Positions 6,055-43,968 of a stretch of 64,000 nt of DNA are shown piece by piece. The stretch covers positions 2,297,001 through 2,361,000 of the forward strand of contig NZ_VOQR01000001.1 in NCBI RefSeq assembly GCF_007995065.1. The letters are read 5' to 3'. How positions within the stretch are numbered: position 1 is the stretch's first letter; every line of letters starts with the position of its first letter. The DNA is from Sphingomonas ginsenosidivorax. Its GTDB lineage: Bacteria > Pseudomonadota > Alphaproteobacteria > Sphingomonadales > Sphingomonadaceae. A model generated the notes under the pieces. That model made no database searches and was not told where the DNA came from. It saw only the letters and a list, made by a program, of their open reading frames with translations. Made by a program: the position numbers and the translations under genes.

Positions 6055-6081
6055 TATGTCGGCCGGCCACCCTGCACTGCG

Positions 6082-6099: not shown

Positions 6100-6119
6100 G
6101 TCGTTATCGAGAATTCACC

Positions 6120-26358: not shown

Positions 26359-28299
26359 TTGCCTACGCAGAACAACAGCACGCCGGAGGCGAGATCCCTC
26401 CGCGAGCTTTCGACCTCAACGAAGTTCGACACCTCGACCCATAAGGTCATGGAGCTGTTCTACGTCCCCGCCCTCGCCCGGTCGGTCACATATGACCGAG
26501 GCGTGGGCTTCTTCACGTCCGGATGGATGCGGATGGCTGCCGCGGGCCTGGCGGGTCTCGCAGAGAACGGCGGCAAGGCCAGGATCATCGCCAGCCCGAA
26601 GCTCGAGCCGGGGGATGTCGCCGCACTCGCCGAGGGAAGCGATGCGATCCGGGACGAAGCCCTCCGCGCCACGCTGCAGCGAAGCCTGGACGAATTGGAG
26701 GGAGCGCTGGAAACGGAGACGCTCGCCGCGATCGCGTGGATGGTCGCCGACGGCATCCTAGAATTCAGGGTCGCGACGCCAGCCAACGCGCTCGACGGCG
26801 ACTTTCACGACAAGTTCGGAATATTCTCGGACGCAACAGGCAACGCCGTGGCGTTCCACGGATCACCAAACGACAGCGCCCATGCATTCCGCAACTACGA
26901 GTCCGTGAGCGCCTTTTACTCGTGGGTGGATGAGCGCGAAGCGCAGCGTGTCGCCGCTGAGACACGACGGTTCGAGCTTCTCTGGGAGAATGCCGACCCG
27001 AACGTCCGGATCTACGACATGCCGGAAGCGATCAGACGCAACCTCATCGAGTTCCGCGATCGGACGCCGCGTCCGTACCAGGCACAGAAGACGAAGCCTC
27101 AGGATAGCCGCTGGCGCCATCAGAAGCAGGCACTGGCGCGGTTTCTCGAGGAGCGGAACGGCGTCCTGGAGATGGCCACCGGCACCGGCAAGACCAGGAC
27201 GGCCGTCAACATCATGAACGAACTGTTCGAGCGCAACGTGGCGAAGACCGCGATCGTAGCCGCGGCGGGCACGGATCTGCTAGACCAATGGTATGCTGTC
27301 CTCGCGGCGGAGGGACGGCCGGTCTACCGGGCCTTCGAGCGGTATCACGAGGCGCAGGGCTATCTGAACGACGCTGAGGGTTCCGTGCTGCTCACCTCCC
27401 GGACGAATCTCGGTGCGGTCCTACCTCGTCTTGCGAAACGGCTGACCGCCAACGGTCTGATCGTCTGCGACGAGGTCCATGGCATGGGGGCTCCGGCAAT
27501 GGTCCGCGACCTACCCGGGCAGATCAAGCCCTTCGGCTGGCGCCTCGGTCTCAGCGCGACACCGGAACGGGAATACGACGCTGACGGAAACACGTTCATC
27601 GAAGAGGAGATCGGTCCGACCATCTTCAAGTTCGGATTGGAGAAGGCGATCCGACGCGGCATTCTGTGCGAGTTCGATTATCTCGAGCTCGAGTATGAGT
27701 TCTCCGCCGTCGACAAGGACGCGGTGAGGCAGGCCATCCGGCGCTATCACGCGCGGGCGCGGATGGCCGATGCGCCTCCCATCGAGAGCCTGTATCAGGA
27801 GATCGCGCGTATCCGTAAACTGTCGCGCGAGAAGCTGCCGCCGTTCGCCGCACTGATAGCAGAGAGGCCGGAGATCCTGGAACGCAGCCTGATCTTCGTG
27901 GAGACCGCGGAGTATGGGTTGGAGGTCCAGGACACCCTGATGCGAGCCGGGATCGACTACCACACCTACTATGCTGGCGACGACCGCGCGAACCTCGGAC
28001 GCTTCGCGCGTGGCGAGCTGTCATGTCTGATCACGTGCCACCGCATCTCCGAGGGGATCGATATCCGTTCGGTCGGCGCAATCGTCCTGTTCGCCTCGGC
28101 GAAGGCCCAATTGGAGACCGTCCAGCGGCTAGGTCGCTGCCTGCGGGTCGATCCTAACGATCCGGGAAAGCGGGCGTTGGTCGTCGACTTCATCCGCACC
28201 GACGATGTGGGTCATGACGACGTTGGGGGTGAGGCGTCAGCTGACATCGGCAGGCGGGACTGGTTCCGCGCGCTCAGCGCCGTGACGAGGGAGGAATAG
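26359..28299 (+). CDS. PLD-nuclease / SF2 helicase, Dnd-linked restriction candidate
   Basis: 646 aa. N-terminal phospholipase-D-like domain: MELFYVPALARSVTYDRGVGFF, then FHDKFGIFSD (HxK) and FHGSPND (GSxN). An SF2 helicase core follows: motif I EMATGTGKTRTAV, motif II CDEVHGMG (DEVH), motif III GLSATPERE, motif VI-like VQRLGRCLRVDP. This fits a DNA translocase with a nuclease module. As I recall, SF2-type 'phosphorothioation system restriction enzymes' are described beside dnd genes; here it lies in the same island as dndBCDEA, facing it. The start is a TTG at 26359 after AAGGGGAG; the first ATG is 30 codons later. It is the first gene of a tight six-gene operon. Confidence 0.85.
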   Translation: MPTQNNSTPEARSLRELSTSTKFDTSTHKVMELFYVPALARSVTYDRGVGFFTSGWMRMAAAGLAGLAENGGKARIIASPKLEPGDVAALAEGSDAIRDEALRATLQRSLDELEGALETETLAAIAWMVADGILEFRVATPANALDGDFHDKFGIFSDATGNAVAFHGSPNDSAHAFRNYESVSAFYSWVDEREAQRVAAETRRFELLWENADPNVRIYDMPEAIRRNLIEFRDRTPRPYQAQKTKPQDSRWRHQKQALARFLEERNGVLEMATGTGKTRTAVNIMNELFERNVAKTAIVAAAGTDLLDQWYAVLAAEGRPVYRAFERYHEAQGYLNDAEGSVLLTSRTNLGAVLPRLAKRLTANGLIVCDEVHGMGAPAMVRDLPGQIKPFGWRLGLSATPEREYDADGNTFIEEEIGPTIFKFGLEKAIRRGILCEFDYLELEYEFSAVDKDAVRQAIRRYHARARMADAPPIESLYQEIARIRKLSREKLPPFAALIAERPEILERSLIFVETAEYGLEVQDTLMRAGIDYHTYYAGDDRANLGRFARGELSCLITCHRISEGIDIRSVGAIVLFASAKAQLETVQRLGRCLRVDPNDPGKRALVVDFIRTDDVGHDDVGGEASADIGRRDWFRALSAVTREE

Positions 28300-28300
28300 A

Positions 28301-28516
28301 GTGGCCGTTGACAGTGACGACAGCCTTGATCCGAACATCACGGCGGCCTTGGACGAGGTCCTCGTGCCGGGTGCTTGTGATCCAGCCCTCCTCGGCCGGT
28401 TGCGGAGGTTGATCGAGAATTGCCTCGCTGACAATTACGATCAGAGCGACGTCCTCGCCATGATCGAACTCGGCGTCGAGACGACCGACAACAGAGGCAC
28501 GCCAGGTGGAGCTTAG
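28301..28516 (+). CDS. Small acidic protein of a DNA-modification-linked operon
   Basis: 71 aa starting with GTG one base after the helicase stop; GAGGGAGGAA is its ribosome-binding site. It is acidic and helical (AALDEVLVP, LGRLRRLIENCLADNYDQSD) with no catalytic motif. It overlaps the CxC ATPase gene by 11 bp. The order small protein / CxC ATPase / DGQHR protein recalls what I remember as the 'CxC ATPase DNA modification system associated small protein' family; that assignment is from memory and not checked. Confidence 0.7.
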   Translation: MAVDSDDSLDPNITAALDEVLVPGACDPALLGRLRRLIENCLADNYDQSDVLAMIELGVETTDNRGTPGGA

Positions 28517-30446
28517 GGTCGTCGGCTGGCGCTATGAAAACGTCCGCGGCGGAATCCGCGACGTCACCGTTTCACTCGACGGCGAGCCGCGCTGGACGCT
28601 TGTCCAGATGCCGAACGGCACCGGCAAGACAACGACGATGACGCTTCTTCGTGCGGTGCTGACAGGTGCCGATCTTACGCCTGACGAGGTGGTAGGATTG
28701 CGAGCCGACGACGACACGGAACACGGTCTGTTCGAATTGCGCCTCTCGATCGATGACAAACCGTACCGCGTCGAGCTGGAACTGGACTTCGTGGCCCGCC
28801 GCGCCACCTATTGGACGACCCGCGCCGCCCTTCTAGCCGGCGGGAGGGAAGAAGGATGGAACCTCCCTCCCCTCCTCCGCAAGCTGCTTACGCCCGAGTT
28901 CACGCGACTCTTCGTCTTCGACGGCGAATTCGCGAAGGAGATACGAGCGGAGGGACGTGATCGCACGACGCGGGCCATTAGGACCCTGTACCGACTGGAT
29001 CAGCTGGATCAGCTGAAGAGCGACATCTCCAAGCTGGTTGCCCTGGAGCAGGCAAAGGCGGCATCGATCACGACGGCACGCGAGCAGAAGGGCGTCACCA
29101 GGCTGCAGAATGCGCTGAGCGAAGCGGAGCGCACGTTGTCGACGCTGCGGTCGAGGCTGAAGACCCTGCAGTCGGAGAAGAAGACGCGCGACGCGCGCCA
29201 AGCCGAGATCAAGGGTCGGATCTCCGAGCGAACGGCGCAGGATGAGAAGTTCGCGGCGCGTCGGGCCAAGCTCGACGCCGAGCTGTCCTCGGTATCGAGC
29301 CGGATCGCAGAACTTTCCGCGACATCGCTTGCGGCGATGCGCTCGCCGACGAAGATCAGTCCGGACCTTCTCGTCAGCCTCCGTGGCTTGGGCACGCGGC
29401 TCACGACGCTGCAGCTTCCGAAGACCATATCGCAGGAGTTCTTCCACGAACTGGCGCACGCCGAATTCTGCGTGTGCGAGACGAAGATTGGGCCGAAGGA
29501 GCACGACGCCATTCTCGCTGGCGCTGACAAATATCTCGCCGAGGACCAGATCACGATCATCAACCGGATGAAGCGCAGCGTCCGCGAAAGCGTCGCGACG
29601 GGTGACGAGTTCGCCGAGGCGTCGAAGGAGTTGCAGACGAAACTGCGCGAGCGGCGCTCGCTTGATCAGCAGCTCGAACAGCTGCAACGCGAGCAGGTCG
29701 AGGCAGGCGATGAGGAGCTCAAGTCCCTCCTGATCGAGCAGAAGCAGATCGAGGTCGACCTGGAACGGATCAGTCGGGAGGCCGGTCATCTCAGCACGAC
29801 CGACCGGCAGACCCAACTGCTCTCGAGGTTGGACTGGAAGACGAACGTGGCGCTCTGTCGTGCAGAGGTAGAATCCTGCCAGCGGAAGTACGCCGCGGCC
29901 ACCAAGACCGTCGAGTTCACGCGGTCGGCGGACAAGATCACTGCCTTGGTTGATCTCGTCGCGGAGAGTGCGCTGGACAAGCTGCGCGAGAGTGTTCGCT
30001 TGGCGACCAACGAGAAGCTCGCTCGGCTGGTCAAGGGTGAACCCCTCCGGGTCGCGCGTATCGGATCAGCCTTGGAACTTGAATCCAGCGGTGTGAGCGC
30101 AAAGGGCGGCGTCAGCGAAGGCCAGAGCCTGTCGGTTGCCTACGCCTTCATCACGTCATTGCTGAGCGCCGCTCCGCACAAGCTACCCTTCATCGTCGAC
30201 AGTCCTGCGGTCTCGCTCGACACCCGCGTGCGGCGGGAGGTCGGCGAGGTCATTCCGGAGCTGTTCGATCAGATGATCATGTTCGTGATTTCGAGTGAGA
30301 AGGACGGTTTTGCCGATGCGTTCTACCCGCGGCAGGATGTCCGCTACGTCACGATCTGGAAGGATGACGGGGACGTGTCGCAGATGCGGGAGGGACTCGA
30401 CGAGTTCAAGCGCTTCCACGCAGCAGAACCGGGGACCGTACAGTGA
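28506..30446 (+). CDS. SMC/DndD-like ATPase with CxC motif
   Basis: 646 aa with SMC/Rad50 organisation: P-loop MPNGTGKTT (35-43) near the N-terminus, LFVFDGEFAKEI (compare LFFFDGEKIADI in the DndD of this window), long coiled coils (about 170-280 and 370-480), CVC at 322-324 between them, signature VSEGQSLSVAYAFI and Walker B LPFIVDSPAVSLD near the C-terminus. The CxC pair sits where Rad50 and SbcC have the zinc hook, so it may bind zinc in a dimer. The start is GTG at 28506. It is probably the motor or DNA sensor of the restriction side. Confidence 0.85.
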   Translation: MELRVVGWRYENVRGGIRDVTVSLDGEPRWTLVQMPNGTGKTTTMTLLRAVLTGADLTPDEVVGLRADDDTEHGLFELRLSIDDKPYRVELELDFVARRATYWTTRAALLAGGREEGWNLPPLLRKLLTPEFTRLFVFDGEFAKEIRAEGRDRTTRAIRTLYRLDQLDQLKSDISKLVALEQAKAASITTAREQKGVTRLQNALSEAERTLSTLRSRLKTLQSEKKTRDARQAEIKGRISERTAQDEKFAARRAKLDAELSSVSSRIAELSATSLAAMRSPTKISPDLLVSLRGLGTRLTTLQLPKTISQEFFHELAHAEFCVCETKIGPKEHDAILAGADKYLAEDQITIINRMKRSVRESVATGDEFAEASKELQTKLRERRSLDQQLEQLQREQVEAGDEELKSLLIEQKQIEVDLERISREAGHLSTTDRQTQLLSRLDWKTNVALCRAEVESCQRKYAAATKTVEFTRSADKITALVDLVAESALDKLRESVRLATNEKLARLVKGEPLRVARIGSALELESSGVSAKGGVSEGQSLSVAYAFITSLLSAAPHKLPFIVDSPAVSLDTRVRREVGEVIPELFDQMIMFVISSEKDGFADAFYPRQDVRYVTIWKDDGDVSQMREGLDEFKRFHAAEPGTVQ

Positions 30447-30901
30447 ACTTCACGCTACCCGCCAAGGCGCGGCCGTTCTTTAAGACTATCGGTGACCAAC
30501 GATCGCCACGGTGGCTGATGTTCGACAGTTGGTACGTATGCATGCTCGTTGGCGTCCGCGCGCGGACCCTAGGTGCGAAGGATGATCTCGAGGACGCCGA
30601 GTTCAATCCCATCTATCCCGACGATTACAAGCCCCAGGCGGACTTCATCGCCGGCTTGCTGATTGACGCCGAGTTGGATCGTAAGGGCATCAACGTGGCC
30701 GACAAGGCATCGGTCGAGCGCGAGATGATCCTGCTGCTGGATCCACAGAAGACCACAGGCCTCAGCGAAATCGGGGTCGAGCTTCTGAACCGGTACGCCG
30801 TGGCCGGTTTCGCCAAGCTCGACGAAGTGATGCTTCCACCGGCGACCGTGGAGGAGATGTTGGTCCGATATGCGGGCGTATGGACCGGGGGGGAGGACTG
30901 A
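30443..30901 (+). CDS. Unknown 152-aa protein in the helicase/CxC-ATPase operon
   Basis: 152 aa, GTG start overlapping the ATPase stop (GTGA). It contains WLMFDSWYVCMLVGVRAR and a helical C-terminus (VELLNRYAVAGFAKLDEVM). No family recognised; the size and context suggest a small accessory subunit, perhaps DndE-like or DndG-like in role. It overlaps the membrane protein gene by one base (TGATG), so coupling of translation is expected. Confidence 0.75.
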   Translation: MNFTLPAKARPFFKTIGDQRSPRWLMFDSWYVCMLVGVRARTLGAKDDLEDAEFNPIYPDDYKPQADFIAGLLIDAELDRKGINVADKASVEREMILLLDPQKTTGLSEIGVELLNRYAVAGFAKLDEVMLPPATVEEMLVRYAGVWTGGED

Positions 30902-31419
30902 TGGCGGCTACTGAAGGTGGTTGGGGTGAGCTCGGCCATGACCTGTGGCGGCGGACGAAGCGCCCGCTGCGACACGCCACATTTGTTTCGTTCTTCATCG
31001 GTAGCGTCGTCGGCATCGGCGGGCTGGGCATCTGGGTCGAATTGATCAATCTCGGCAGAGGCGACAGTCCAGTCGATCTGGCCTCACTGAGAACCGCGTT
31101 GGCGACGTTCTTCCCCGCGCTCGTCGGCTCGACATGCTTTCAGATCATCCTCGGGCGGTATCTGAAGGCGCTGAAGGCCGTCACGTTCCCCGCATCGATC
31201 GCGCTCGCGGTGGTCGGCTTCTGGCTGATCTTCGATCGCGGACTCACCGCGCACAAGGCCATCACAATCGCAATCCTGGCTACGATCGTGTCGCTTTGGT
31301 TCTGGTGGATCGCAAACGCCGACAACCCGGACTTCTTCGATGAGACACTCCCCCTCGCCGCTGTCGGCGGTGATACGGCCCGTCCCTTGGACGGCAACTT
31401 GGATGGGTTCGACGCATGA
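30901..31419 (+). CDS. Four-helix membrane protein of the operon
   Basis: 172 aa with four hydrophobic segments: ATFVSFFIGSVVGIGGLGIW (about 27-46), ALATFFPALVGSTCFQIIL (about 66-84), FPASIALAVVGFWLIF (about 95-110) and ITIAILATIVSLWFWWIA (about 119-136), then a short acidic tail. No family recognised. An inner-membrane protein inside a DNA-restriction operon could be an effector that damages the membrane, or an anchor. GGGGGGAGG precedes the ATG at 30901; an in-frame ATG 21 nt upstream was rejected. Confidence 0.75.
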   Translation: MAATEGGWGELGHDLWRRTKRPLRHATFVSFFIGSVVGIGGLGIWVELINLGRGDSPVDLASLRTALATFFPALVGSTCFQIILGRYLKALKAVTFPASIALAVVGFWLIFDRGLTAHKAITIAILATIVSLWFWWIANADNPDFFDETLPLAAVGGDTARPLDGNLDGFDA

Positions 31420-32705
31420 CTGAGACGGCAACCCGGTTCCCATACCGCACCAAGGCGCTGCGGATCCGTCAGGAGCTCGCAGAATGCTTCGTGGCCGCCC
31501 TGCCCGCCCGGCTGCTCCTCGACGTCTGCTTCAGCGACGTGCTGACGGCGGAGCACACCGACGACACGAAGAAGCCATACGTTCTCGGCGGCACGCAGCG
31601 CGAGCAACGCGAGAAGCGGCTCCAGGAGGTCGGCAGGTACATCGATCGTGATGACACCGCCTTTCCAAACTCGATCATTCTGGCGGCGAACTCACGTCCC
31701 AGCGACGGGACGACCGAGGATGCTCCGGACGATCAGGCCGACGAGGACGCCGAGGAGGAGGAGACGGGAGAGTCCGAAGTTGGCCCGGAAGATCGCAACC
31801 CGGCTGGCATCGACCGGCGGTGGCGGATCGAGGTTGGCGATGACGGCTGCCATGAGCTGGTAATCCCCAGCGAAAGCAAGTTGGCGGCAGTGGTCGACGG
31901 TCAGCATCGCCTGTTCGGTTTCACCAAGGCCGAGGTGCTTGAACGCCTCGACATGGACATGATCTGCACGATCTACCTGGACCTGCCCAAGTCGTTCCAG
32001 GCCCAGATATTCGCCACGATCAACTCGAACCAGAAGCCGGTCGACAAGAGTCTGACGTACGAGATGTTCGGCTACAACATCGACGACGAGGATCCATCGT
32101 TCTGGAGTCCGGATAAGCTGGCCGTGTTCCTCACCCGCCGATTGGGAAGCGACGAGGGCTCGCCATTGAAGGGACGCATCGTCATTGCGCCGAAGAAGGA
32201 CGCAGCGTTGGCGGCCTTGACGGGAACGACGGGCTGGAAGGTGTCGACGGCCGTCATCGTCGAGGGGATCGCAAGGCTCCTTACTAGTAACCCGAAGAGC
32301 GATGCGAATAGTCTCCAGACCCCTAGGAAGGTCCGGCGAGTGGACATTCGTGACCGCCGTAAGGACAGGTCGCCGCTTCGGGAGGCATACTTCAACGGGC
32401 AGGACGTCGTTATCTATACGATGGTCCTGAACTACCTGACGGCGTGCAACGAGCTGTTCTGGGCGCTCGCGCCCGTCGACTCGTTCATCTACAAGACCGT
32501 TGGCGTCCAAGCGCTGTTCGACATTCTGCGCAAGTTGGCACCGGCGGCCTACGAGACGAAGGTGATCTCGGTTGACCACTTCCGATCGATCCTGAAACCT
32601 GCCGAGGACCTTGATTTCACGGAAGATCGTTTCCGCAACGCTTCGGGCTCCGGTCGCAGCATCATCCGGCGCGCCATCGAGGAAGAGATCGGACTTGGAA
32701 GATGA
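31416..32705 (+). CDS. DGQHR-domain protein (DndB-like)
   Basis: 429 aa with AAVVDGQHRLFGF (DGQHR at 161-165), the hallmark of the DndB/DGQHR family, plus FATINSNQKPVDKSLTYEMFG, a conserved block of such proteins. A Glu/Asp-rich insert (EDAEEEETGESEVG) lies near residue 110. DndB binds DNA and regulates phosphorothioation in known Dnd systems; the role of this second copy is unknown. It overlaps the membrane protein gene by 4 bp (ATGA), is the last gene of the operon, and faces the family A gene at 32829. Confidence 0.88.
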   Translation: MTETATRFPYRTKALRIRQELAECFVAALPARLLLDVCFSDVLTAEHTDDTKKPYVLGGTQREQREKRLQEVGRYIDRDDTAFPNSIILAANSRPSDGTTEDAPDDQADEDAEEEETGESEVGPEDRNPAGIDRRWRIEVGDDGCHELVIPSESKLAAVVDGQHRLFGFTKAEVLERLDMDMICTIYLDLPKSFQAQIFATINSNQKPVDKSLTYEMFGYNIDDEDPSFWSPDKLAVFLTRRLGSDEGSPLKGRIVIAPKKDAALAALTGTTGWKVSTAVIVEGIARLLTSNPKSDANSLQTPRKVRRVDIRDRRKDRSPLREAYFNGQDVVIYTMVLNYLTACNELFWALAPVDSFIYKTVGVQALFDILRKLAPAAYETKVISVDHFRSILKPAEDLDFTEDRFRNASGSGRSIIRRAIEEEIGLGR

Positions 32706-32828
32706 CCTCGGTTGCCAGTTCTTCTTAGTGACCGCGCGCTCCATGATGGTAGTGCCTGTTCTTGCGGCCGACCCGGTACTGACCTCGTGACGGCGCTTCG
32801 TCCCGAGCGTGGCCGGCTTTCGCGGCTA

Positions 32829-33833
32829 TCATGCTGACCAGATCTGACCCGACTCCACATTGAAGTAGAGGTCCGGGATTTCGAGACACGCGATCACGAA
32901 ATTGGCTCCTTCGCCCTCGTGGCTCGTGACCGTGCCGACGAGAATGCGTTCATCGAGCGCAGGGTGGGCGATCACGTCAGTAACAGGACGTCCGATGGCG
33001 TTGATGCAGGTAGTCTCCGGAAGAACGTAGTCACTGACGGTCAGAATGGAGCCCGTCCAGGCCACACGGTCGGTGCCATCAGCGATCGAATATATCGCGC
33101 CTTCCTCCCAGCAGAGCTCGAAATCGTTTCCGAGGGTCAAATCGTTCCGCGTCATCATCGTCTGTAGGATCGCCATGGCGTTCCCCACTCGGGCAATCGC
33201 ATTGAGCGACAGGAGATCGATCGTTCCGTCGGCGTTCGCATCGTCCAAACGGGCCCGGGCGACAGCACGCCGTTCAAGTGTTTCCATCGCCGTGACGAAC
33301 AGTCTTCCCAGAGCCTCTTCGCTTCCGGTCGTCATGGGCATGTGACGACTCCGCAGGTTCTGCCCCAGCGTCTCAATCGTGACCACGAACTGCGCATCAT
33401 CAGGTTGTTCCCAGAATCCGAACTGTGCGAGGTGTACGCTGACCAGCTTAACTGGCAGCCCGCGCCGCTCGCCATTCTCAACTAGCAGTTGCGCGCTCTT
33501 TGCCATGGACTGGAAGCGGGGAGCGAGGTCTGCCGCGACGTACGAGGCCCGCATCGCGTAGTCGCATACACGGTTCGCGACGCGGCTCTCATTCCCGGCG
33601 ACTTGATGGTCCCCTATCGTTGGAAACAAGTCCGCGAGCATCGTAACTCTCAGTGCTATCTCGATGACGTAGTCTGCGTCCTCGGTGCACTCCTTTAGCA
33701 TGGATGCCGTGGCTCCGGCGAACCTAGGGAAGTCGCCGGAACGGAGCGTTGCCAGACGACATTCGATCAGCGCCGCTATTCGACGCTCCCTCGCTGCGAA
33801 AGAATGGTAAGAGGTTAAATCGGCAACAGTCAT
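32829..33833 (-). CDS. Protein of unknown function, family A
   Basis: 334 aa, related to the 348-aa protein at 23538-24584 (QFVVTIETLGQNL at 148-160, FELCWEEGAI at 238-247, LPETTCINAIGRPVTD at 271-286). No recognised catalytic motif, signal peptide or membrane helix. GGAGG lies 8 nt before the ATG at 33833; an upstream TTG at 33863 is possible but less likely. It sits between the helicase operon (convergent) and the FRG-domain gene. Confidence 0.72.
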   Translation of the reverse strand: MTVADLTSYHSFAARERRIAALIECRLATLRSGDFPRFAGATASMLKECTEDADYVIEIALRVTMLADLFPTIGDHQVAGNESRVANRVCDYAMRASYVAADLAPRFQSMAKSAQLLVENGERRGLPVKLVSVHLAQFGFWEQPDDAQFVVTIETLGQNLRSRHMPMTTGSEEALGRLFVTAMETLERRAVARARLDDANADGTIDLLSLNAIARVGNAMAILQTMMTRNDLTLGNDFELCWEEGAIYSIADGTDRVAWTGSILTVSDYVLPETTCINAIGRPVTDVIAHPALDERILVGTVTSHEGEGANFVIACLEIPDLYFNVESGQIWSA

Positions 33834-34243
33834 TTGGGCAGCCTCCGTCAAGGAGGAACTCAAAGCCCCCTTGTGCTCATAGGATGGTCGGATACGCTCG
33901 CAAAGCGTGATGACTTCGTCGGCGAAGCATGGTGTTCCGGAACGGCCGCCCGGCTGGCAGCAACACAGTCAGATTTCCTAAGTTCGGATCAAACAGATGA
34001 TTTGGAATGAGGCGGGTAGTACCGTTGACGTCCCCCCAAAGATAATCGGGGCGAGGCGGGCCGCACTCTCTGCGCCTACATGCGCTCCGGCACCCCAATG
34101 GCAGCCCTCTCCTCTTTGATCCAAACGCCCGAAGACTGGGATCCTGCGGTGATCGATCCCTTGCGATCGGTCGCGATCTGATCCCTGTCAAGGGTACGGA
34201 TATCGGACGCTCGACGGGTTCGGTCCCGGGCACTTCGAAGTGA
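33834..34243. other. Intergenic region, possible gene remnant
   Basis: 410 bp. A minus-strand frame (33877-34233) contains a protein-like piece (PDYLWGDVNGTTRLIPNHLF) but has an Arg/Pro-rich front and no good start. It may be a decayed gene or chance. It must also hold the promoter of the family A gene. Confidence 0.35.
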
Positions 34244-35998: not shown

Positions 35999-36127
35999 CT
36001 GGAAACACCTTGCCTATGAGAGCCCTCGGACCTTCCAAGTCGGAACTGTCAGCGTAAACTAAGATTATCGAAGCCGGCATGCCACCGACGGCGGATTTCC
36101 GCCTAGCAGGATGCACCGAGAACGAAG

Positions 36128-37225
36128 CTAGGCGACATCCCTCCGTAGAATGAGCAGCCGCTCCTCAGGAAATTTCGCCCGAATAAACTCTTGAAGTCCG
36201 TCGGACATCGGCGGGGCAACTAGCACGACCGCCTTACCAAGCTCTCTGAGCCAGGCCACCCATGCATGAGCTTCGTCGACATCGGAATAGGTGATCCCGA
36301 TGTCCCAAATGAGATGAACGACGCTGCATTGATCGTAGTCGGACGGTACAGGCTCTGCATGTCCCATCACGGCCTCGTAGTTGAGCGTGAATGTGCAGGG
36401 CGTTACCGCCTGGAGCTGCTTGATGGTTCTAATGAGCGCGACGGTGTAGCGATTCCCTTCGCTCGTTACCTCTGATTCAACGAAGATTGAACCCGACCAG
36501 TCGCGGAGGACTGTCGAGAGTGCCGCCTGCCCCCCTCTTCCGTTTTGGTGCCCGACAAGACTCAGCAGGTCGAACGCCGCGCCGTTGTCCGTCAGGTGTA
36601 TTCGAGTGGGCTCCACCGTGAGCAGGGCCTCGGTCGCACCCCCGTACGAAGCTGCATTGCGGACGATTTCGGCCAGAAGCTCGCGGATCACATGCGTGGG
36701 CGCGGCTCCCCATACCTCATAGCTGCACGCTTCGATGAGTACCGTATCGATGCGATCGACCAGATCGCGAGTTGGACCGACGGGAAGATACAGAGGGGCC
36801 AGGGGATGGCTGATTGTGTCGTCGTCAGCGAGAACGACACTATCCCTCTTCAGGATCTGAGCGAGATGCGCCCTCCGCTCTGCCAGCCGCTTCCAGTGTC
36901 GGAGGGTCTCGACAGTATACGTCGATTCGTCGGTATCGATGAGTCTGCCGTCGGTGCCACACATCCAGATGCCGTTGTCCGGACCGTGAAGTTCCGTTTT
37001 ATCACCGACTGGACGACGACGTCTGGCCGGGGGATTGGGCGACGCCGAAATGATGTGACTCGCCGTCGCGGTATCGGACCGTGCTGCTTCGCTTTCGGCG
37101 GAAGGGCCAGCCGTTGGCGCGCGGCATGCCGGATGCGAACAACGAAAACCTGCCCGATGGCCGATGATCGCTCTCGTCTTTTCGGTGAAGTCGTTCCCCT
37201 TACGGCTATCATTTGGCATCGTCAC
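36128..37225 (-). CDS. HNH endonuclease fused to a GHKL ATPase domain
   Basis: 365 aa. The N-terminal HNH-like domain (about 15-115) has FRCSHPACRAPTAGP (C29, C34), SHIISA (H57), NGIWMC (N84, C89) and LIDTDESTYTVETLRHWKRL. The usual CH after the second cysteine pair is GTDG, so one metal ligand may be lost. The second domain (about 175-265) has a GHKL ATP-binding fold: N-box ELLAEIVRNAASYGG (E186, N190), G1 LTDNGAAFD, G2 NGRGGQAAL. A small C-terminal alpha/beta segment (VVHLIWDIGITYSD) follows. GHKL domains act as switches in RsbW, MORC and type II topoisomerases. The GTG start at 37225, after AGGA, is only 33 bp behind dndA, so it is probably part of the dnd operon and a restriction candidate. 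Confidence 0.78.
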   Translation of the reverse strand: MTMPNDSRKGNDFTEKTRAIIGHRAGFRCSHPACRAPTAGPSAESEAARSDTATASHIISASPNPPARRRRPVGDKTELHGPDNGIWMCGTDGRLIDTDESTYTVETLRHWKRLAERRAHLAQILKRDSVVLADDDTISHPLAPLYLPVGPTRDLVDRIDTVLIEACSYEVWGAAPTHVIRELLAEIVRNAASYGGATEALLTVEPTRIHLTDNGAAFDLLSLVGHQNGRGGQAALSTVLRDWSGSIFVESEVTSEGNRYTVALIRTIKQLQAVTPCTFTLNYEAVMGHAEPVPSDYDQCSVVHLIWDIGITYSDVDEAHAWVAWLRELGKAVVLVAPPMSDGLQEFIRAKFPEERLLILRRDVA

Positions 37226-37258
37226 GAATGTCCTGTGGTTGCCTCGTCGCGACGGCGC

Positions 37259-38428
37259 TCAGGCTGCGTAGCGCCGCAGATCCGCTGCGGTTTCAACCAG
37301 AAGGTGAGCGAAGTTCCTCATGTCCTCCGCTTCCGTGAACCTACCCGGCGATACCCGGAACGCCTGCCGCGCTCGGGCCGTGTCGCCGAACATCGCAAGA
37401 AGGACGGAACTAGTTTGCACCTTCTCCGTCGCGCAGGCGCTCGATGCAGAGAAGCTGAAGAAGGGATTCAACCTGTGCATCAACGCAAGCGGTTCGACCC
37501 CTGGGATCGAGAGCGAGATGTTGGTCGCGATCCGTTCGGTGGGGTGGCCGTTGAGTTCGACGCCGTCGATCGCGCCCCGGGCGACCTCCAGGAACTTCGC
37601 CGTCATCGCGCGGAGCCGCTGGTCGTCAGCTGCCGCCTGCCGTCCAGCTACCTCAAGCGCCTCGCCGAGCCCGACGACGAGATGGACAGCCACGGTGCCC
37701 GGTCGAAGCCCCTTTTCCTGCCCACCGCCGAACATGATCGGCTGAACGCGCGCCCGCGGCGAACGGGAACGCACATACAGCGCGCCCACGCCCTTCGGCC
37801 CGTAGGCCTTGTGGCCCGATACGCTGGCGAGGTGGATGTGCTCGGCGGCGACGTCCACCTTCCGGTGCGCCATCAGCTGAGCGAGGTCGGTGTGGAAGAG
37901 CACGCCGCGACGCTCGCAGATCTCACCGATCTCACCGATCGGCTGGATGGTGCCGACCTCGTTGTTCGCACCCATGACCGAGACGAGACCGGTGTCCTCC
38001 CTAAGGGCGGACTCAACGGCGGCGGGGTCAACGCGACCATGCTCATCGACCCCGAGGACGGTCAGCTCGAAGCCTTCACGTTCCAGTTGCCGGAACGGCT
38101 CCATGACGCCGGGGTGCTCGATGGCGGTCGTCACCAGATGCTTGCGTTCCGGACGTGCGCGTGCGGCTCCGAGGATCGCGATGTTGTCGGCTTCGGTGCA
38201 GCTCCCAGTGAGGATGATCTCGTTGTCGCGAGCGTTAAGCGAGGCGGCGATCTGCTGTCGGGCCTTCGCTACGGCCGCCTGGGCGCGGTTGCCGTGCACA
38301 TGCTCGACGCTGGACGGATTGCCGAAGATCTCCGTCAGGTAGGGCGTCATGGCGGCGACGACGCGCGGGTCGACCGCGGTGGTCGCGTTGTTGTCCAGAT
38401 AGACCGGCCCCTTCGCGCCGTTCGTCAC
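37259..38428 (-). CDS. dndA: Cysteine desulfurase DndA
   Basis: 389 aa, PLP-dependent class V aminotransferase fold: YLDNNATTAVDPRV, AIEHPGV (H105), SGHKAYGPKG (PLP lysine K207) and SSACATEKVQTSSVL (catalytic C332). It takes sulfur from L-cysteine as a persulfide and passes it to DndC. The start is GTG, overlapping the dndE stop codon (GTGA), so it is the last of the five dnd genes. Being tied to dndE rather than to isc genes makes the DndA assignment firm. Confidence 0.93.
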   Translation of the reverse strand: MTNGAKGPVYLDNNATTAVDPRVVAAMTPYLTEIFGNPSSVEHVHGNRAQAAVAKARQQIAASLNARDNEIILTGSCTEADNIAILGAARARPERKHLVTTAIEHPGVMEPFRQLEREGFELTVLGVDEHGRVDPAAVESALREDTGLVSVMGANNEVGTIQPIGEIGEICERRGVLFHTDLAQLMAHRKVDVAAEHIHLASVSGHKAYGPKGVGALYVRSRSPRARVQPIMFGGGQEKGLRPGTVAVHLVVGLGEALEVAGRQAAADDQRLRAMTAKFLEVARGAIDGVELNGHPTERIATNISLSIPGVEPLALMHRLNPFFSFSASSACATEKVQTSSVLLAMFGDTARARQAFRVSPGRFTEAEDMRNFAHLLVETAADLRRYAA

Positions 38429-38793
38429 GAGGTCATGGCCAGACGGCCGAGATCGGCCGGAGACTTGGCGCGTACCGCAAGCGTGCCCACGCCCCTATGA
38501 ATATGGGCGCGGAGACGATCGAGCAGTTCCTCGTCCGCGAGTTCGGGACCGCCGTCCTCCTGTTCGACGAAGCGGAGCAGTGCGCCCACCATGCCCGTAT
38601 GCTCGCCGGTTAGAGTGTAGGCGTTGAACTCCTGCCCCTTGTCATCGGGCGCGAGTGAGGTGACGGGGCCCTCTTCCAGAGATAGCATGAGCGCGGCTCT
38701 GCAGAGCAGGTTGGGGGTGACCCCCGTCCTCTGCCTGATCGATCGTAGGCGGCTCGTCGCGTCCGCCGAGATCTTAAGCTTGCTGTAGCGCAT
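38425..38793 (-). CDS. dndE: DNA sulfur modification protein DndE
   Basis: 122 aa, starting MRYSKLKISADATSRLRSI, then TGVTPNLLCRAALMLSLEEG and FNAYTLTGEH, the usual DndE pattern. DndE binds DNA, prefers nicked DNA, and takes part in the modification complex. It overlaps dndD by 20 bp and dndA by 4 bp. GGAGG is 6 nt before the ATG at 38793; an upstream start in frame was rejected because it has no such site. Confidence 0.9.
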   Translation of the reverse strand: MRYSKLKISADATSRLRSIRQRTGVTPNLLCRAALMLSLEEGPVTSLAPDDKGQEFNAYTLTGEHTGMVGALLRFVEQEDGGPELADEELLDRLRAHIHRGVGTLAVRAKSPADLGRLAMTS

Positions 38794-40774
38794 GAACGAC
38801 CTCCGTGTCGCCGTCCCCGAAGTAACCCGGTATCGCATGCGTAGAACGCAGCTCGTGGTCGTATTCGAGGCGGTAGGAATGGCTGATGCTGGGCGACAAC
38901 TGCTCGAGCAGGCGTCCGTCGACCTCCGTGTCGGTCGAGAGGACGATCACTTGGTGGCTCGCCTCCGGGAAGTAGCGTTCGACGATGGTCGATCGATGTT
39001 CCGAGTCCAGTCGCGCCAACGGCGTGTCGATGATCATGGGCAGTGCGCGTCCACTCGTGCGGGCCAGGGCCCACAGCATGGCGATCGCGTAGACCTGCTT
39101 CTCCCCGGCCGACAGGCTGGACTTTCGGATCTCGCCACCGGACTTGTCGATAAGCGTCGCATCGAACGTCGAGCGATCGATGCGAACGTCGGCCACGAAA
39201 TCGCCCTTACGCGCGAGATGGTTGAACCGCTCCACGAACTCCTTGCGCAGCTGCTCGATCTTGAGATCCAGTAGCCTTTCCTCGTACTGCTGCAGGGCTC
39301 GGCCGACCCGACCCGCCAGCGCGGCGCGCTCCTCGGTGGCGGCAGCCTCGGTCTGTGCCTCGATCGCCCGCTCCTTCTCGCGGATCAGGGTTGCGCGCTG
39401 GTACTCGAGACTGCGGAGTTCCTCGGTCCGGGCTTTGAACTGGGCCTCGATTACCCCAACGTCCTTCTCCGCGAGCAGAAGTTCGTCGAGCACGACGCCC
39501 GCCGCGTGACCGGATGCCCGCACGATCTCCGCATCGAAGCTCCGAAGGCGCTTCGTCAGGGCATCGAGGTCGGACACGAGCACCGACGCCTTGGCGGGCA
39601 CCGTGTCCCGCGCTTCCGCGATCCGGGCCGTGAGCCTCCGCCGTTCGGCGGCATCGAGGCCGTCCAGCGTGGGATCGGCGACACCGGGACTGTCGGCGTC
39701 GGCCTTGAGGAAGCCTTCCAGATCCTTCCAGTGCGCATCCTTCCAAGTAGCGCCCCGCTGCGGATCGCCGCCGTCGCGCCACGCGAGCAGGCGGCGCCGA
39801 AGTGCGTCGGCCTCCTCTGCCGCGCCAGCGCTCCCGGATTTCGAAAGGGCAGCCGAGTACCTTGCCAGTAGCTTCGGGGCCATGGCGAATGGCAGCAGGC
39901 TACCGGCGAGATCGCGCAGCTCGTGCTCCCGCCTGCCGATCTGCTCCTTTACTTCCTTCCGGCTCGCTTCGAGCGACGCGCGCTGGTTGGCCGCGTCGCC
40001 TCCCTCGGCGATGAATCGCTGTCGGACCTTGTTGGCGGCGCCGGTCTGGGAGAGATGACGTGTGCTCAGCTCCGCGACGTCCTCCGACATGTCTCCGATC
40101 CGTCGCTCCAGAGCCGCTATGTCGCGGACGACGGTCTCCAGGCGGCCGGCGGCCGCACCGTCCTCCCGGCGGCTGCGTCGGGCGAGATACAGGCCGATGT
40201 CGGTCCGCAGACGTCCGACTAGTTCGATGCCGAGCAGGCCGCGGACCGCATCGGCGAGGCCCTCATCGGGATCATCCCTCGCGATGTCCGCGATCTTCTC
40301 GCCGTCGAAGAAGAAGAGCTGCGAGACGCCGGGTGGAATGAGTTCCTGAAGGAACGCGTGCCACTCGTCACGAGGCACGGTGTCGACCGGGGCTCCGTCC
40401 TTTTCGAGGGTTAGCGTCTCCACGGCCTTGGCGCCCCGAACCGTCCATCGGCGTGACACGCGGTACCGCTGCACCACACCCGCTTCGGCGTAGTCGAACT
40501 CCAACCCGACGGACGCGACCTTCGCGGGCTCGCCTTGGGCGCCGACGTGCACGCGGTTCCGTAGATGGACCTCGTACTCGGATTGGGCGACGCGCAGCCC
40601 GAGGGCGCGTCGTCCGTACAGTGCCAGACGAACCGCCTCGAGGAGCGTCGTCTTGCCGGCGCCATTGCGTCCGCCGATGAGAACGACCGGTCGACCCCGT
40701 GTTGGAACGAGGTCGATGCGCTGGCGACCCGCATATAGCCCGAAGTTCTCGAGCTCGATTGCCCGAAGGATCAT
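38774..40774 (-). CDS. dndD: DNA sulfur modification ATPase DndD
   Basis: 666 aa, SMC/Rad50-like: P-loop VLIGGRNGAGKTTLLEA (residues 31-47), LFFFDGEKIADIARDD, coiled coils in the middle, signature SLSAGEKQVYAIAMLWALAR and Walker B LPMIIDTPLARLD. DndD has ATPase activity linked to DNA nicking or shaping during sulfur insertion. It overlaps dndC by 4 bp (ATGA). The DndD-like CxC ATPase of the facing operon shares the FDGE block but has a CxC pair in its coiled coil. Confidence 0.93.
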   Translation of the reverse strand: MILRAIELENFGLYAGRQRIDLVPTRGRPVVLIGGRNGAGKTTLLEAVRLALYGRRALGLRVAQSEYEVHLRNRVHVGAQGEPAKVASVGLEFDYAEAGVVQRYRVSRRWTVRGAKAVETLTLEKDGAPVDTVPRDEWHAFLQELIPPGVSQLFFFDGEKIADIARDDPDEGLADAVRGLLGIELVGRLRTDIGLYLARRSRREDGAAAGRLETVVRDIAALERRIGDMSEDVAELSTRHLSQTGAANKVRQRFIAEGGDAANQRASLEASRKEVKEQIGRREHELRDLAGSLLPFAMAPKLLARYSAALSKSGSAGAAEEADALRRRLLAWRDGGDPQRGATWKDAHWKDLEGFLKADADSPGVADPTLDGLDAAERRRLTARIAEARDTVPAKASVLVSDLDALTKRLRSFDAEIVRASGHAAGVVLDELLLAEKDVGVIEAQFKARTEELRSLEYQRATLIREKERAIEAQTEAAATEERAALAGRVGRALQQYEERLLDLKIEQLRKEFVERFNHLARKGDFVADVRIDRSTFDATLIDKSGGEIRKSSLSAGEKQVYAIAMLWALARTSGRALPMIIDTPLARLDSEHRSTIVERYFPEASHQVIVLSTDTEVDGRLLEQLSPSISHSYRLEYDHELRSTHAIPGYFGDGDTEVVHALQQA

Positions 40775-42270
40775 CGCGCGCCGCCCTCAGCGTCGAAGGC
40801 CTCCTCGACTTCGGCTTCATCATCCGCGACGAGCACGTCGTCGGAAAGACCGAGCTTCCGACGCTGCTCGTCGACCACGATGTCCAGGTCCCGCCACTCG
40901 AGACGGAACGCGTCCTCGATGCGCGTGTGGACCGCGTGCCGCCGTTTGAGGCCATGCGATGCACGCTCGATGTCGAGAAGACGCATGACGAGGTCGGTCG
41001 GCACATCGTTTCCCGCGCAGATCTCGTCGAGCAGATCTCCGTCGTCGGCCGTGAACGAGACGGTGTCCTCCGCGACCCAGTCCAGATCCTTGCCCAGCGT
41101 CTCGCGGACGATGCGGGGCACGCTGTCGGGCCAATCCCCGCGCTCGGTGCGCCATAGGCGCCGGATCTCGTGAAGCTCGTTCTCACCGATCAGCGTGGGA
41201 GCCTCCCCGATCGGGGCTTCGCGCGCCACCTCGTTCTGCGTCTCGAGCAGCCGACGAAGAAGCGTACGGCAGAAGTCGAGGGTGTACGGCCCGGGCATGA
41301 CCCGGTCAGTATTGGGAATGAAGTTGATCTGTCCGGTCCGGCGCCGGAAGTCCCGGAACTCGCGCTTGCGTTCGGGCACCTGTGTACCTGAGAGCAGATC
41401 ACGGAACTCCAGCAGAGGCGTCAGCCATTCCTCACCGGAATCGATCATGGCCTCCATCGCCCTGTCGCGTTCCACGACGGTGCAGACCCAGCATCCGAAG
41501 CGCGAGTTGCCGCAGGACGGGGTGGTCGTGTCGACCACCAGAGGGCACTCTCCGGAAGAGGCGTTGCGATACATCGCGACGAGGTCGCGGTTGTCGTTGC
41601 CCCAAGGTGACGGGTTCTGGAGCAGGTAGGTCCATACGTCGTCGGTCGAGAAGGCGGCGATCGGCGCGTATACGAAGGCGTTCAGGAGTGACGAGTGCCG
41701 CGACAGCCGCGATCCTTCGATCTTGTGAAGCGACATCACCTGTGCGCGGGTCGACGACTCCTGCGATCGTACGCCGAGAACCATCACCACCTCGCCGAAC
41801 TCCGCGACGCGGCTTTTGATGAACTCGTTGGCCGGCTCGATCTTCAGCCGCTCCGTGCACCAGCGGAACCGGCGCGATGGGGCGGGATAGCCTCGACCGA
41901 TGAGGTTCACCCAGAAGCTGCGGTCGACGTCGGGGACCACCTTCTGCGTGATGATCGGCATGCCCTGTTCGATGGCCGCGGCGGCGATCCGTTCAAGCGT
42001 GACGTCGATGTAGCGGGATACGACCGGCGTTTCGACCAGCGTATCGGAGCTGATCACGTAGATCGTCTTGGTCCGCTGCTCCTTCGGCAGTGCGGTGATC
42101 GCGGTCCAGATGATCTGAAGCGCGGTGGTGGAATCCTTGCCACCGGAGTAGCCCACCACCCACGGACGGCTATCGGAGAGATAGATCTCACGCACGTCCT
42201 CCATCAGGCGGGCGATCGATTCGGGACCCGTGAGCTGCGGCTTGGCGGTTTGCTTGTTGTCTTTTTGCAC
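40771..42270 (-). CDS. dndC: DNA sulfur modification protein DndC (PP-loop)
   Basis: 499 aa, PAPS-reductase-like: PP-loop GYSGGKDST (40-48), and the cysteine cluster SCGNSRFGCWVC near residue 245, where DndC binds a 4Fe-4S cluster. It activates the DNA backbone and inserts sulfur received from DndA. GTG start with AGGA 7 nt upstream; 44 bp downstream of dndB. Confidence 0.93.
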   Translation of the reverse strand: MQKDNKQTAKPQLTGPESIARLMEDVREIYLSDSRPWVVGYSGGKDSTTALQIIWTAITALPKEQRTKTIYVISSDTLVETPVVSRYIDVTLERIAAAAIEQGMPIITQKVVPDVDRSFWVNLIGRGYPAPSRRFRWCTERLKIEPANEFIKSRVAEFGEVVMVLGVRSQESSTRAQVMSLHKIEGSRLSRHSSLLNAFVYAPIAAFSTDDVWTYLLQNPSPWGNDNRDLVAMYRNASSGECPLVVDTTTPSCGNSRFGCWVCTVVERDRAMEAMIDSGEEWLTPLLEFRDLLSGTQVPERKREFRDFRRRTGQINFIPNTDRVMPGPYTLDFCRTLLRRLLETQNEVAREAPIGEAPTLIGENELHEIRRLWRTERGDWPDSVPRIVRETLGKDLDWVAEDTVSFTADDGDLLDEICAGNDVPTDLVMRLLDIERASHGLKRRHAVHTRIEDAFRLEWRDLDIVVDEQRRKLGLSDDVLVADDEAEVEEAFDAEGGAR

Positions 42271-42314
42271 GTCTGAATCCTAGTCCAAGTACCGGCGACA
42301 GTCAGTCGATTTGT

Positions 42315-43349
42315 TCACTTTTCGTCGCATCCGCGTAGCGCCCTGTGGATGACGTCCGCGGTGAGCATGACGCTGGTGCGCGACCGGTTGACCCGGCCAC
42401 CCAGAAGCGCCCTACCCTCCCAGAGGCCCGTGTTCCCACGGGACCAGTCGATCGTGCCGAGGGCGAGAAGTGCATCCTGCCAGGAGGCGGGGCGCTCGGC
42501 GATCATCCGGGCGCCCGCGATCGCCATCGCCTCCATCGCGACCCCATGCGCATGTACCCGGTCTCGCCGCAACTCGCCCGCCGAGACCTTCCCCTCGCCG
42601 GCCAGTCTCCATTCCGGCATCGCGCCAACGACATGCCGCCAGAACTCGATGGCTGGCCCGGGTTGCTCGGCGGTCGCTTCCAATCCGGCCTCGTCGACCA
42701 GCGTAGCCGTCGCCGTGTGCAGGTTGCTGAAGGCGAACAGCTTTCGCGAGGTTCCGGAGAGATTGGTGCGCGTGAGATCGGTTAGATCACGGAAGAGCGG
42801 TATGGCCTCGACGACCGCCCTGGTGAGCCGCGCCGCGTCGTCACGGGCATCGTAGAAGAGCCGTAGCGATCTGGACGGCTTCACCCCATGCTGATTCAGA
42901 TCGACGAACATCTGCTGCGACCTGGCGAGCCCGCCGTCTGGAAACAGAGTGACGGCGATCGTCTCGTCGCCGAGATGGGGACGCTCCTTCAAAGCCTCGA
43001 CAATGCCGGCGCGACGGTGCTGGCCATCGTTGATGACGATGGTCGCGGTCATTTCGACGACGAGCGTTCCGATCGACCTCTCGCCGACGGCGGCTTCGAA
43101 CTTCATGCCGCCATCGACCGTGGCCGACAGTGCCGACAGGACGTACTCGCCGGCGTTCGTCGCGATGTAGCGTGCGATCGCGGGTACGCGGCCCTTGTTC
43201 AATCCCCGTTGCGCGCGAAGCGCCGTCGGCAGCTCCTCCTCGTCGAAGCGGAAGAGCCGCTCGACCATCCTGAGCGGGACCATCGCCACGTAGTAGGCGC
43301 GGCCCGCCTGCACGCCGCGGATGGCGGCGAAGCTGTAACTGTTACTCAT
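42315..43349 (-). CDS. dndB: DndB, DGQHR-domain regulator of phosphorothioation
   Basis: 344 aa with IVINDGQHRRAGI (DGQHR at 108-112) and LFPDGGLARSQQMFVDLNQH, standard DndB features. DndB limits modification and autoregulates some dnd operons. It is the first structural gene of the operon; GGAAGG precedes the ATG and it overlaps the regulator gene by 8 nt. It is related to the 429-aa DGQHR protein of the facing operon. Confidence 0.92.
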   Translation of the reverse strand: MSNSYSFAAIRGVQAGRAYYVAMVPLRMVERLFRFDEEELPTALRAQRGLNKGRVPAIARYIATNAGEYVLSALSATVDGGMKFEAAVGERSIGTLVVEMTATIVINDGQHRRAGIVEALKERPHLGDETIAVTLFPDGGLARSQQMFVDLNQHGVKPSRSLRLFYDARDDAARLTRAVVEAIPLFRDLTDLTRTNLSGTSRKLFAFSNLHTATATLVDEAGLEATAEQPGPAIEFWRHVVGAMPEWRLAGEGKVSAGELRRDRVHAHGVAMEAMAIAGARMIAERPASWQDALLALGTIDWSRGNTGLWEGRALLGGRVNRSRTSVMLTADVIHRALRGCDEK

Positions 43350-43968
43350 CGTTTTTCCCTTCCAAGCGGTTCAACCGCCCGACGGGCTCGAGAAATCTAT
43401 CTTCGAAAACGGTGCGGACATGCAGTCCGTCCACGCTCTCTCCAAAACCTAGCTTGGCGAGCTCGGCCAAGTGCGGATGCGAGAAGGTCACCCTGCGGCA
43501 ACCGCTGGCGTCGGAATCCTCCACGAAGAGGCTGCTACACAGGACCTCTCCTCGCTCCACGCGGGAGAGCTGCGACGCTGATGCGCCACAGGTCGCTGCA
43601 AGCGCGCGGAGGCGAAGGCCAGCATGAAGACGCCCGATCCGAAGCGCGCGGCAAAGCTCCATCCGCGGATCGCCGTCACGCATCGCGCCGCCGGTTCGGC
43701 AGCGGTTTGGCGATCGGCCCCGGATGGCAACATCGTCCCATCCGAGGTCTAGGGCGCCGAGAAGCTGATCCATCGTCCCCGGCTGAGGCCACGCCCGGCC
43801 TCGCTCGATCCTGCACAGGGTCTCCCGCGCGATCCCGATACGGTCGGCGAGGGCCTGCTGCCCCCCAAAGCGAATGCGCCGTCGTGCCGCGACGATGTCG
43901 CCCAGATCATCCCGCAGCGCTGCGAATCCGTTTGGTAGGCGCATCCTGGAGCGTTGCATGACGACCAT
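43342..43968 (-). CDS. Double-HTH (XRE-like) regulator of the dnd operon
   Basis: About 208 aa with two HTH-like segments: IVAARRRIRFGGQQALADRI with ARETLCRIERGRAWP (about 25-62), and LRIGRLHAGLRLRALAATCG with SASQLSRVERGEVL (about 109-143). Two XRE folds in tandem could form an intramolecular dimer. It overlaps dndB, so it is probably the operon's own regulator. The start is uncertain: in-frame ATGs at 43968, 43959 and 43944 all lack a clear ribosome-binding site, and a longer frame reaches 44040. Confidence 0.78.
   Translation of the reverse strand: MVVMQRSRMRLPNGFAALRDDLGDIVAARRRIRFGGQQALADRIGIARETLCRIERGRAWPQPGTMDQLLGALDLGWDDVAIRGRSPNRCRTGGAMRDGDPRMELCRALRIGRLHAGLRLRALAATCGASASQLSRVERGEVLCSSLFVEDSDASGCRRVTFSHPHLAELAKLGFGESVDGLHVRTVFEDRFLEPVGRLNRLEGKNDE

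Follow-up and report, generated by a model that had tools for sequence, protein, structure and literature searches.

The closest described counterpart of the locus analysed here is the DndCDEA-PbeABCD system (PMC6459918), also treated as the CxC ABC ATPase-DndE system (PMC10853773), in which the antiviral Pbe genes depend on DNA phosphorothioation (PT). The published PbeB has 66 aa and the published PbeD 152 aa (Xiong et al. 2019, PMC6459918); PbeD has been called a DndE cognate by Rakesh et al. (PMC10853773), and Halorubrum trapanicum CBA1232 (our locus L054) is a carrier named in the Pbe paper. TIGR04172, DNA phosphorothioation-associated DGQHR protein 1, was introduced as a PT satellite family in the ProPhylo paper of 2011, the consulted part of which reports seven homologues, invariably beside PT genes (PMC3226654). 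SspE/DndI carries a DUF262/DGQQR NTPase and an HNH on one chain, and the consulted part of a study of DndI describes its DGQQR motif as hydrolysing ATP, being stimulated by PT and mattering for defence (PMC11662687). DndFGH (DptFGH) is a further PT satellite operon.

Organization of the locus

The stretch of DNA analysed here (the window) comprises 64,000 nt of Sphingomonas ginsenosidivorax (GCF_007995065.1, NZ_VOQR01000001.1, positions 2,297,001–2,361,000, forward strand), and the locus lies within 26359–44040 of it. The minus strand carries the genes in the order HTH-dndB-C-D-E-A, opposed by a six-gene, tightly packed operon on the plus strand:

26359–28299, plus: PbeA, HKD/PLD nuclease-like domain and SF2 helicase, 646 aa (PADLOC PbeA, E 1e-194)
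28301–28516, plus: small protein at the PbeB position, 71 aa (assigned by place and size)
28506–30446, plus: PbeC, CxC-hook ABC ATPase and DndD relative, 646 aa (PADLOC PbeC, E 9e-21, a label that is not specific)
30443–30901, plus: PbeD, 152 aa (collinear similarity, 28% to L054, 44% to L055 and 41% to L056)
30901–31419, plus: four-TM partner protein, 172 aa (alignment A3 of 52 members; no family model of its own)
31416–32705, plus: DGQHR1, a DGQHR protein near TIGR04172, 429 aa (446 bits)
37259–38428, minus: DndA cysteine desulfurase (PADLOC DndA, 3e-138; TIGR03235, 455 bits, below the NCBIfam cut-off of 480)
38425–38838, minus: DndE (TIGR03184, 94 bits, cut-off 71.85)
38774–40774, minus: DndD ABC ATPase (TIGR03185, 509 bits, cut-off 245.85)
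40771–42270, minus: DndC sulfurtransferase (TIGR03183, 578 bits, cut-off 290.4; SGGKD and CWVC motifs)
42315–43349, minus: DndB (TIGR03233, 407 bits, cut-off 328)
43342–44040, minus: HTH regulator with two HTH_3-type stretches (Pfam HTH_3, 8e-12)

Homologues of DndA, B, C, D and E thus all lie in one operon by PADLOC and NCBIfam, DndA being below the NCBIfam cut-off, and together with the Pfam match of the HTH gene they bear out the complete dndBCDEA set with regulator that a preliminary description had read from this DNA. The opposed, overlapping operon of six genes given there (PLD-SF2 helicase, 71-aa protein, CxC ATPase, 152-aa protein, membrane protein and DGQHR protein) likewise agrees with the ORF coordinates. 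Its junctions are a 1 bp gap or overlaps of 1 to 11 bp, taking 30901 as the start of the membrane gene, and the six genes are likely a single predicted transcription unit. Four further ORFs at 32829–37225, which separate dndA from the plus-strand operon, had been omitted. The locus is almost certainly Dnd plus PbeABCD plus a separable gene pair. We do not treat all six as a single new system, because four of them and the other two keep separate company.

The first four genes match PbeABCD

By order, size, motifs and homology, the first four plus-strand genes are identified as PbeABCD, the published PT-dependent antiviral cassette. They agree with it in gene content, gene order and position beside dnd, and in having a CxC hook, an HKD-SF2 PbeA and a 152-aa PbeD, and they are collinear with L054, L055 and L056. 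PbeA contains the HKD-type motifs HDKFGIFSD and GSPN together with GTGKT, DEVH and RLGR, and is 43% identical to the L054 protein over 660 columns. PbeC has a hook that reads FCVC and a P-loop, MPNGTGKT, shared with L002, L005, L013 and L015; its identity is 32% to L054, 45% to L055 and 36% to L056. In DndD no CxC was found within residues 200–480, where it was looked for. The 71-aa protein matched no family model and nothing in L054, where the gene at the PbeB place bears the label "CxC ATPase DNA modification system associated small protein"; weak matches occur at the corresponding place in two records, 36% over 45 aa at E 0.007 in L055 and 56% over 25 aa at E 9e-5 in L056. PbeD matched no family model, and a comparison of its profile with that of DndE, built from only 7 and 10 rows, gave a probability of 0.4.

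The window differs from the published arrangement in that its Pbe genes are convergent with dnd and do not follow it (as also in L055), in the added dndB and HTH genes, and in the TM and DGQHR1 genes at the end of the Pbe operon. The preliminary description had taken the six-gene operon for a distinct restriction partner or a second modification-like system. In substance a restriction partner is indeed joined to Dnd, PbeABCD lying beside linked PT modification genes, but it is not distinct: the order of genes 1–4 is that of the already described Pbe, an outcome that the preliminary description had itself named as counting against its reading. A second modification-like system holds as ancestry only, PbeC being a DndD relative and PbeD a reported DndE cognate. 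That description had also found no DndF/G/H-like proteins, and a genome-wide profile search for DptH (TIGR03237), the one member of the set covered, found none either, a difference from DndFGH loci. The same search was positive in 1 of 40 other genomes and is therefore able to detect the family.

A four-TM protein is encoded just upstream of DGQHR1

The main system is thus known, and the novelty of the locus is the four-TM partner just upstream of DGQHR1. DGQHR1 matches TIGR04172 over its full length (E 1e-133), shares its PT company and its DGQHR motif, and falls just short of the curated cut-off (446 against 450 bits); its identity to the 18 relatives aligned in A1 is 55–82%, and several of these are named TIGR04172. 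The motif lies at residues 161–165 and is invariant across 57 rows. The best ten Foldseek matches of the DGQHR1 model are to ParB, Noc, KorB, SspE and BrxU, and the predicted fold weakly resembles ParB/SspE NTPases. DndB was its sole Pfam match, and no HNH was found at E 0.1; unlike SspE/DndI, it comes with a separate four-TM protein.

The ORF of the membrane gene opens at 30880 (179 aa), and 30901 is the more likely start (172 aa), matching database entry P0126. The protein has four hydrophobic segments and, in A3, a conserved Gly-rich C-tail, and its AF2 prediction has a pLDDT of 90.3. The family models searched included none for the 172-aa protein, and the consulted part of the ProPhylo paper does not mention a membrane partner gene. 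We found no description of this protein, or of the pair, in the published literature searched; the pair is not part of the published PbeABCD.

Of 40 fetched loci, 37 have an HMM match to the TM protein encoded immediately upstream of DGQHR1, at gaps of -101 to +15 bp (36 of the 37 at -29 or above). Two more loci give weaker evidence, a weak match in L041 and a C-terminal piece at a contig edge, seen by eye, in L039; in the fortieth, L034, the upstream side is unreadable. Further plasmid records have the TM gene there in 6 of 6 cases (L060 weakly, E 4e-9). An upstream ORF with at least four hydrophobic segments precedes 5 of 5 DGQHR1-type genes (three of them, from the window, L005 and L009, being already among the loci above) vs none of 18 DGQHR genes of other types, among them DndB, in a count that covered 23 of 26 places. 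Protein distances correlate between TM and DGQHR1 (r 0.69, 35 loci), compared with 0.35 for DGQHR1 and DndC and 0.27 for TM and DndC (26 loci). The two genes look like one module. The PT satellite family of 2011 was not seen without this partner in any fetched locus with a readable upstream side, and an orphan DGQHR1 becomes a testable two-gene membrane module.

The pair tracks PT modification

Co-occurrence with dnd, a comparison that the preliminary description had proposed for all six genes, holds for the pair and separates it from Pbe. DndC is present in 34 of 40 DGQHR1 genomes, against 13 of 398 in a background drawn from the phylum, and all 3 non-own DGQHR1 matches above 300 bits among 397 carry it. 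PbeA, scored with PDLC02703 out of the five models that PADLOC has for it, occurs in 10 of the 40 and DptH in 1; the pair therefore follows PT modification generally rather than Pbe. Counting only these two partner markers, 23 of the 40 hold DndC with neither. The placement of the pair varies: in the window and L002 it follows pbeD, in L009, L013 and L057 it diverges from dndB, and in L060 it stands behind dptFGH. Relatives of the L067 type are found next to adenine-methylase-like genes.

Proposed working of the locus

By analogy with published homologues, PT marks would be written by DndACDE, probably under regulation by DndB and the HTH protein, and PbeABCD would read PT as a self tag and block unmodified invading DNA. 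The four-TM protein would be closely coupled to a ParB/DUF262-like NTPase bearing the DGQHR motif, in a separable module appended to the Pbe operon. Like the related DndI domain, DGQHR1 may sense nucleotide along with PT or the state of the DNA, and with the four-TM protein it could form a second defence layer at the inner membrane. Direct observation covers the identity of the genes, the pairing and adjacency of the two, and their tracking with DndC; with slightly less than even confidence we take the pair to be a second layer accompanying PT systems, linked to the membrane and using NTP, whose PT sensing, NTP hydrolysis, membrane action and role in defence we infer. PT defence may then extend to the membrane, an aspect omitted from models centred on DNA cutting.

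Other explanations, some of them mutually compatible, have to be weighed against this second-layer reading. The pair may be a self-standing PT-dependent effector, in which an NTP-driven DGQHR sensor gates or recruits the four-TM protein and kills or seals the infected cell without cutting DNA. The 23 genomes with DndC and neither PbeA nor DptH support this, and although we think it rather improbable, it would, if true, be a membrane-acting phosphorothioation partner unlike those named in the published literature searched. About as doubtful is a regulatory role, with a membrane-held DndB relative tuning how much PT is present or how strongly the dnd or Pbe operon is expressed. DGQHR1 and DndB share the DGQHR domain (27% over 88 aa, E 0.002; TIGR03187 matches both), DndB is a regulator according to the consulted part of the published work, and the pair accompanies DndC whichever restriction partner is present. 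However, the window already has a DndB, as do 9 of the 40 fetched loci beside the pair, a four-TM partner seems unusual for a transcription regulator, and the two promoter regions have no clear operator-like site in common (best match 9 bp, E 0.29).

Cellular FtsK carries a membrane domain. The pair might replace such a domain, anchoring the machinery that scans DNA (PbeC-PbeD, DndD-DndE or DndE-FtsK) at the membrane, the site of phage DNA entry, which we regard as unlikely. In 15 of 40 loci dndC, an ABC ATPase and a DndE-like gene of 496–517 aa are consecutive near the pair; the one such gene scanned with Pfam, in L008, has its DndE part followed by the alpha and motor domains of FtsK, two plasmid records annotate the long DndE-like gene as FtsK, and in L033 DndE is fused in frame to the TM protein. 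The L033 fusion, however, looks like a decayed remnant, with a partial DndD and a genome without DndC; FtsK_4TM is absent among the matches listed (25 of 34 Pfam families) for the 52 TM members; and the pair is found also without FtsK. Least probable to us is the reading of the pair as a passenger, a defence unit of its own gathering in PT islands through the clustering of defence genes. Its variable position and the 6 of 40 genomes without DndC fit such a history, but the enrichment of DndC exceeds what loose clustering would lead one to expect, and the seven homologues of 2011 stood invariably beside PT genes.

Genes 1–4 of the plus-strand operon are PbeABCD

The window (C1:2297001–2361000 in a genome of 4.14 Mb) carries an HTH gene, dndB, dndC, dndD, dndE and dndA on the minus strand and a six-gene operon on the plus strand, in which neighbouring genes are separated by 1 bp or share 1–11 bp, given the membrane-gene start at 30901 of the protein database entry (172 aa). 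Re-examination of the sequence and family models confirmed this gene list of the preliminary description, which had read the plus-strand operon as a distinct restriction partner or a second modification-like system. The restriction partner stands but its distinctness does not, since genes 1–4 are the known PbeABCD. What is new at the locus is the membrane partner of a known phosphorothioate (PT) satellite protein, the two being encoded by genes 5 and 6.

PADLOC models identify PbeA (E 1e-194) and PbeC (9e-21) in the operon. The PbeC label is unspecific by itself, as the window's DndD and the CxC-less ATPase of locus L008 also match PbeC models best, so identity was decided by the CxC hook and gene order. 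The 646-aa ATPase contains an FCVC motif, and nine of the ten Pbe-bearing loci that were fetched have a CxC in their ATPase; in the other, L009, there is just a 209-aa ATPase piece. The small proteins are 71 and 152 aa, against 66 aa for PbeB and 152 aa for PbeD as given in Xiong et al. 2019 (PMC6459918), which shows that full PT-dependent virus resistance requires all four Pbe genes. Halorubrum trapanicum CBA1232, placed in the PbeAC tree of that paper, has the plasmid order dndC-D-E-desulfurase-PbeA-small protein-PbeC-PbeD; the window's Pbe proteins match it collinearly, with identities of 43% (PbeA), 32% (PbeC) and 28% (PbeD). The matching Pbe order also occurs in Methylobacterium bullatum and Priestia megaterium, with PbeA, PbeC and PbeD identities above those of H. 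trapanicum. The stretches fetched around these three Pbe loci contain no homologue of the window's TM protein (the 172-aa, four-TM product of gene 5) or DGQHR1 (the 429-aa product of gene 6), so Pbe can occur in the absence of this pair. Rakesh et al. 2024 (PMC10853773) report 936 bacterial and 41 archaeal taxa in which a Dnd and a CxC system stand in tandem, and describe PbeD as a DndE cognate, a kinship not seen in our own profile comparison (probability 0.4, shallow alignments).

DGQHR1 is paired with a membrane protein

Genes 5 and 6 form a module separate from PbeABCD. DGQHR1 resembles TIGR04172 over its full length (446 bits, cut-off 450), a family built from seven homologues invariably adjoining PT genes and called a satellite family in the 2011 ProPhylo paper (PMC3226654). 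Pfam, NCBIfam and PADLOC have no model that matches the TM protein. Among 40 loci fetched by DGQHR1 alignment, an HMM placed the TM gene immediately upstream of DGQHR1 in 37. The gap between the two genes ranges from −101 to +15 bp and is −29 bp or more in 36 of the 37; the −101 bp gap (L013) is caused by an over-long DGQHR1 ORF. In L041 the TM match is weak (E 7.5e-6) and falls in a protein of 220 aa that has four hydrophobic segments, L039 shows by eye an apparent C-terminal end of the TM protein before a contig edge, and in L034 DGQHR1 itself is cut by the contig edge. Eight plasmid records carry DGQHR1; in all six that were opened (the remaining two being a sister record and L026 again) the TM gene lies upstream (E 6e-62 to 4e-9), annotated as a hypothetical protein. 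We found no mention of a membrane partner of DGQHR1 in open-licence PMC literature, and one may be in print elsewhere.

Among the DGQHR genes examined, the pairing is specific to the DGQHR1 type. A background draw of 398 genomes from the window's phylum contains 26 DGQHR-domain places, and in the 23 examined an upstream ORF with at least four hydrophobic segments accompanies 5/5 DGQHR1-type genes versus 0/18 others, 7 of them DndB. The window, L005 and L009 recur here and make up three of the five. L092 (= L066) and L078 (= L067) are additional; their upstream ORFs have no TM HMM match and were assigned by hydropathy and position. At L067 (786–2661), a distant DGQHR protein and its overlapping upstream ORF with five hydrophobic segments stand behind an ORF reading by eye like an adenine methylase. 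The genome concerned has no DndC match; here the pairing may extend beyond phosphorothioation. The window's own genome has a third DGQHR-domain gene outside the window (G000:C1:2376273–2377247).

The pair follows PT modification genes

DndC scores above cut-off in 34 of the 40 DGQHR1 genomes versus 13/398 drawn genomes (Fisher 8e-34), the 40 being a non-random set collected by DGQHR1, with some near-identical members (L022, L023) and a few from outside the phylum. Within the draw, DGQHR1 exceeds 300 bits in 3/397 genomes besides the window's, all three with DndC (Fisher 2e-5); adding the weak DGQHR1 match of G389 makes this 3/4. The same 40 genomes contain PbeA in 10 (one PADLOC model) and DptH, standing for DndFGH-type restriction, in 1. 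The pair therefore follows the modification genes, not Pbe. By distance correlation, TM and DGQHR1 move together (0.69, 35 loci), less so with dndC (DGQHR1/DndC 0.35 and TM/DndC 0.27, 26 loci); DGQHR1/DndA gives 0.40 (13 loci) and DGQHR1/DndB 0.63, on few loci (10).

The placement of the pair varies across loci (ARRANGEMENTS). The window has it after pbeD, as does L002 (same strand); in L009, L013 and L057 it is divergent from dndB; in L018 and L031 it comes after DndBCDE, and in L060 after dptFGH. In 15/40 loci it is near consecutive dndC, ABC ATPase and 496–517-aa DndE-like genes, the last containing FtsK domains in L008 (Pfam) and annotated FtsK in L059 and L062; a DndE–FtsK fusion is a known form in Rakesh et al. 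2024 (PMC10853773).

At L033 (9196–10002), the N-terminal 127 residues of DndE are fused in frame to the TM protein; the locus has a partial DndD and the genome no DndC match, and the fusion is likely a decayed remnant. A protein of about 355 aa (cluster C8) occurs near TM-DGQHR1 in 6/40 loci (L007, L011, L014, L020, L030, L040); its N-termini look membrane-spanning by eye, and a SAM-methyltransferase domain is present in the copy of L040.

Other genes in the window

Four further ORFs (32829–37225) lie between dndA and the plus-strand operon, the 365-aa ORF starting 33 bp past dndA; no homologues of the four were found in L002.

Further genes in the window
1915–9785, plus: two large consecutive proteins, 1379 aa and 1221 aa
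within 32829–37225, minus: 365-aa ORF, N-terminus matching PADLOC endonuclease-effector (E 1e-10) and PDC-M68A (4e-14), weak HATPase match
within 32829–37225, minus: 584-aa ORF, FRG domain
within 32829–37225, minus: 118-aa ORF, may be spurious
within 32829–37225, minus: 344-aa ORF, without family
44379–45755, plus: 458-aa protein adjoining the dnd regulator, weak TIR-like (CAP12/Pycsar) matches
46697–47704, minus: DUF6602 / PD-(D/E)XK nuclease-like protein

The 1379-aa protein, with a P-loop-like GDPGAGKS near its N-terminus, has no match among PADLOC models, and the 1221-aa protein matches PDC-M54A (E 6e-14, PADLOC); the two are perhaps another defence pair. In L030, the ORF immediately preceding the TM gene contains a relative of the 458-aa protein (43% over 174 aa). 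The Priestia plasmid L056 likewise has a DUF6602 gene behind its PbeD (33% over 101 aa).
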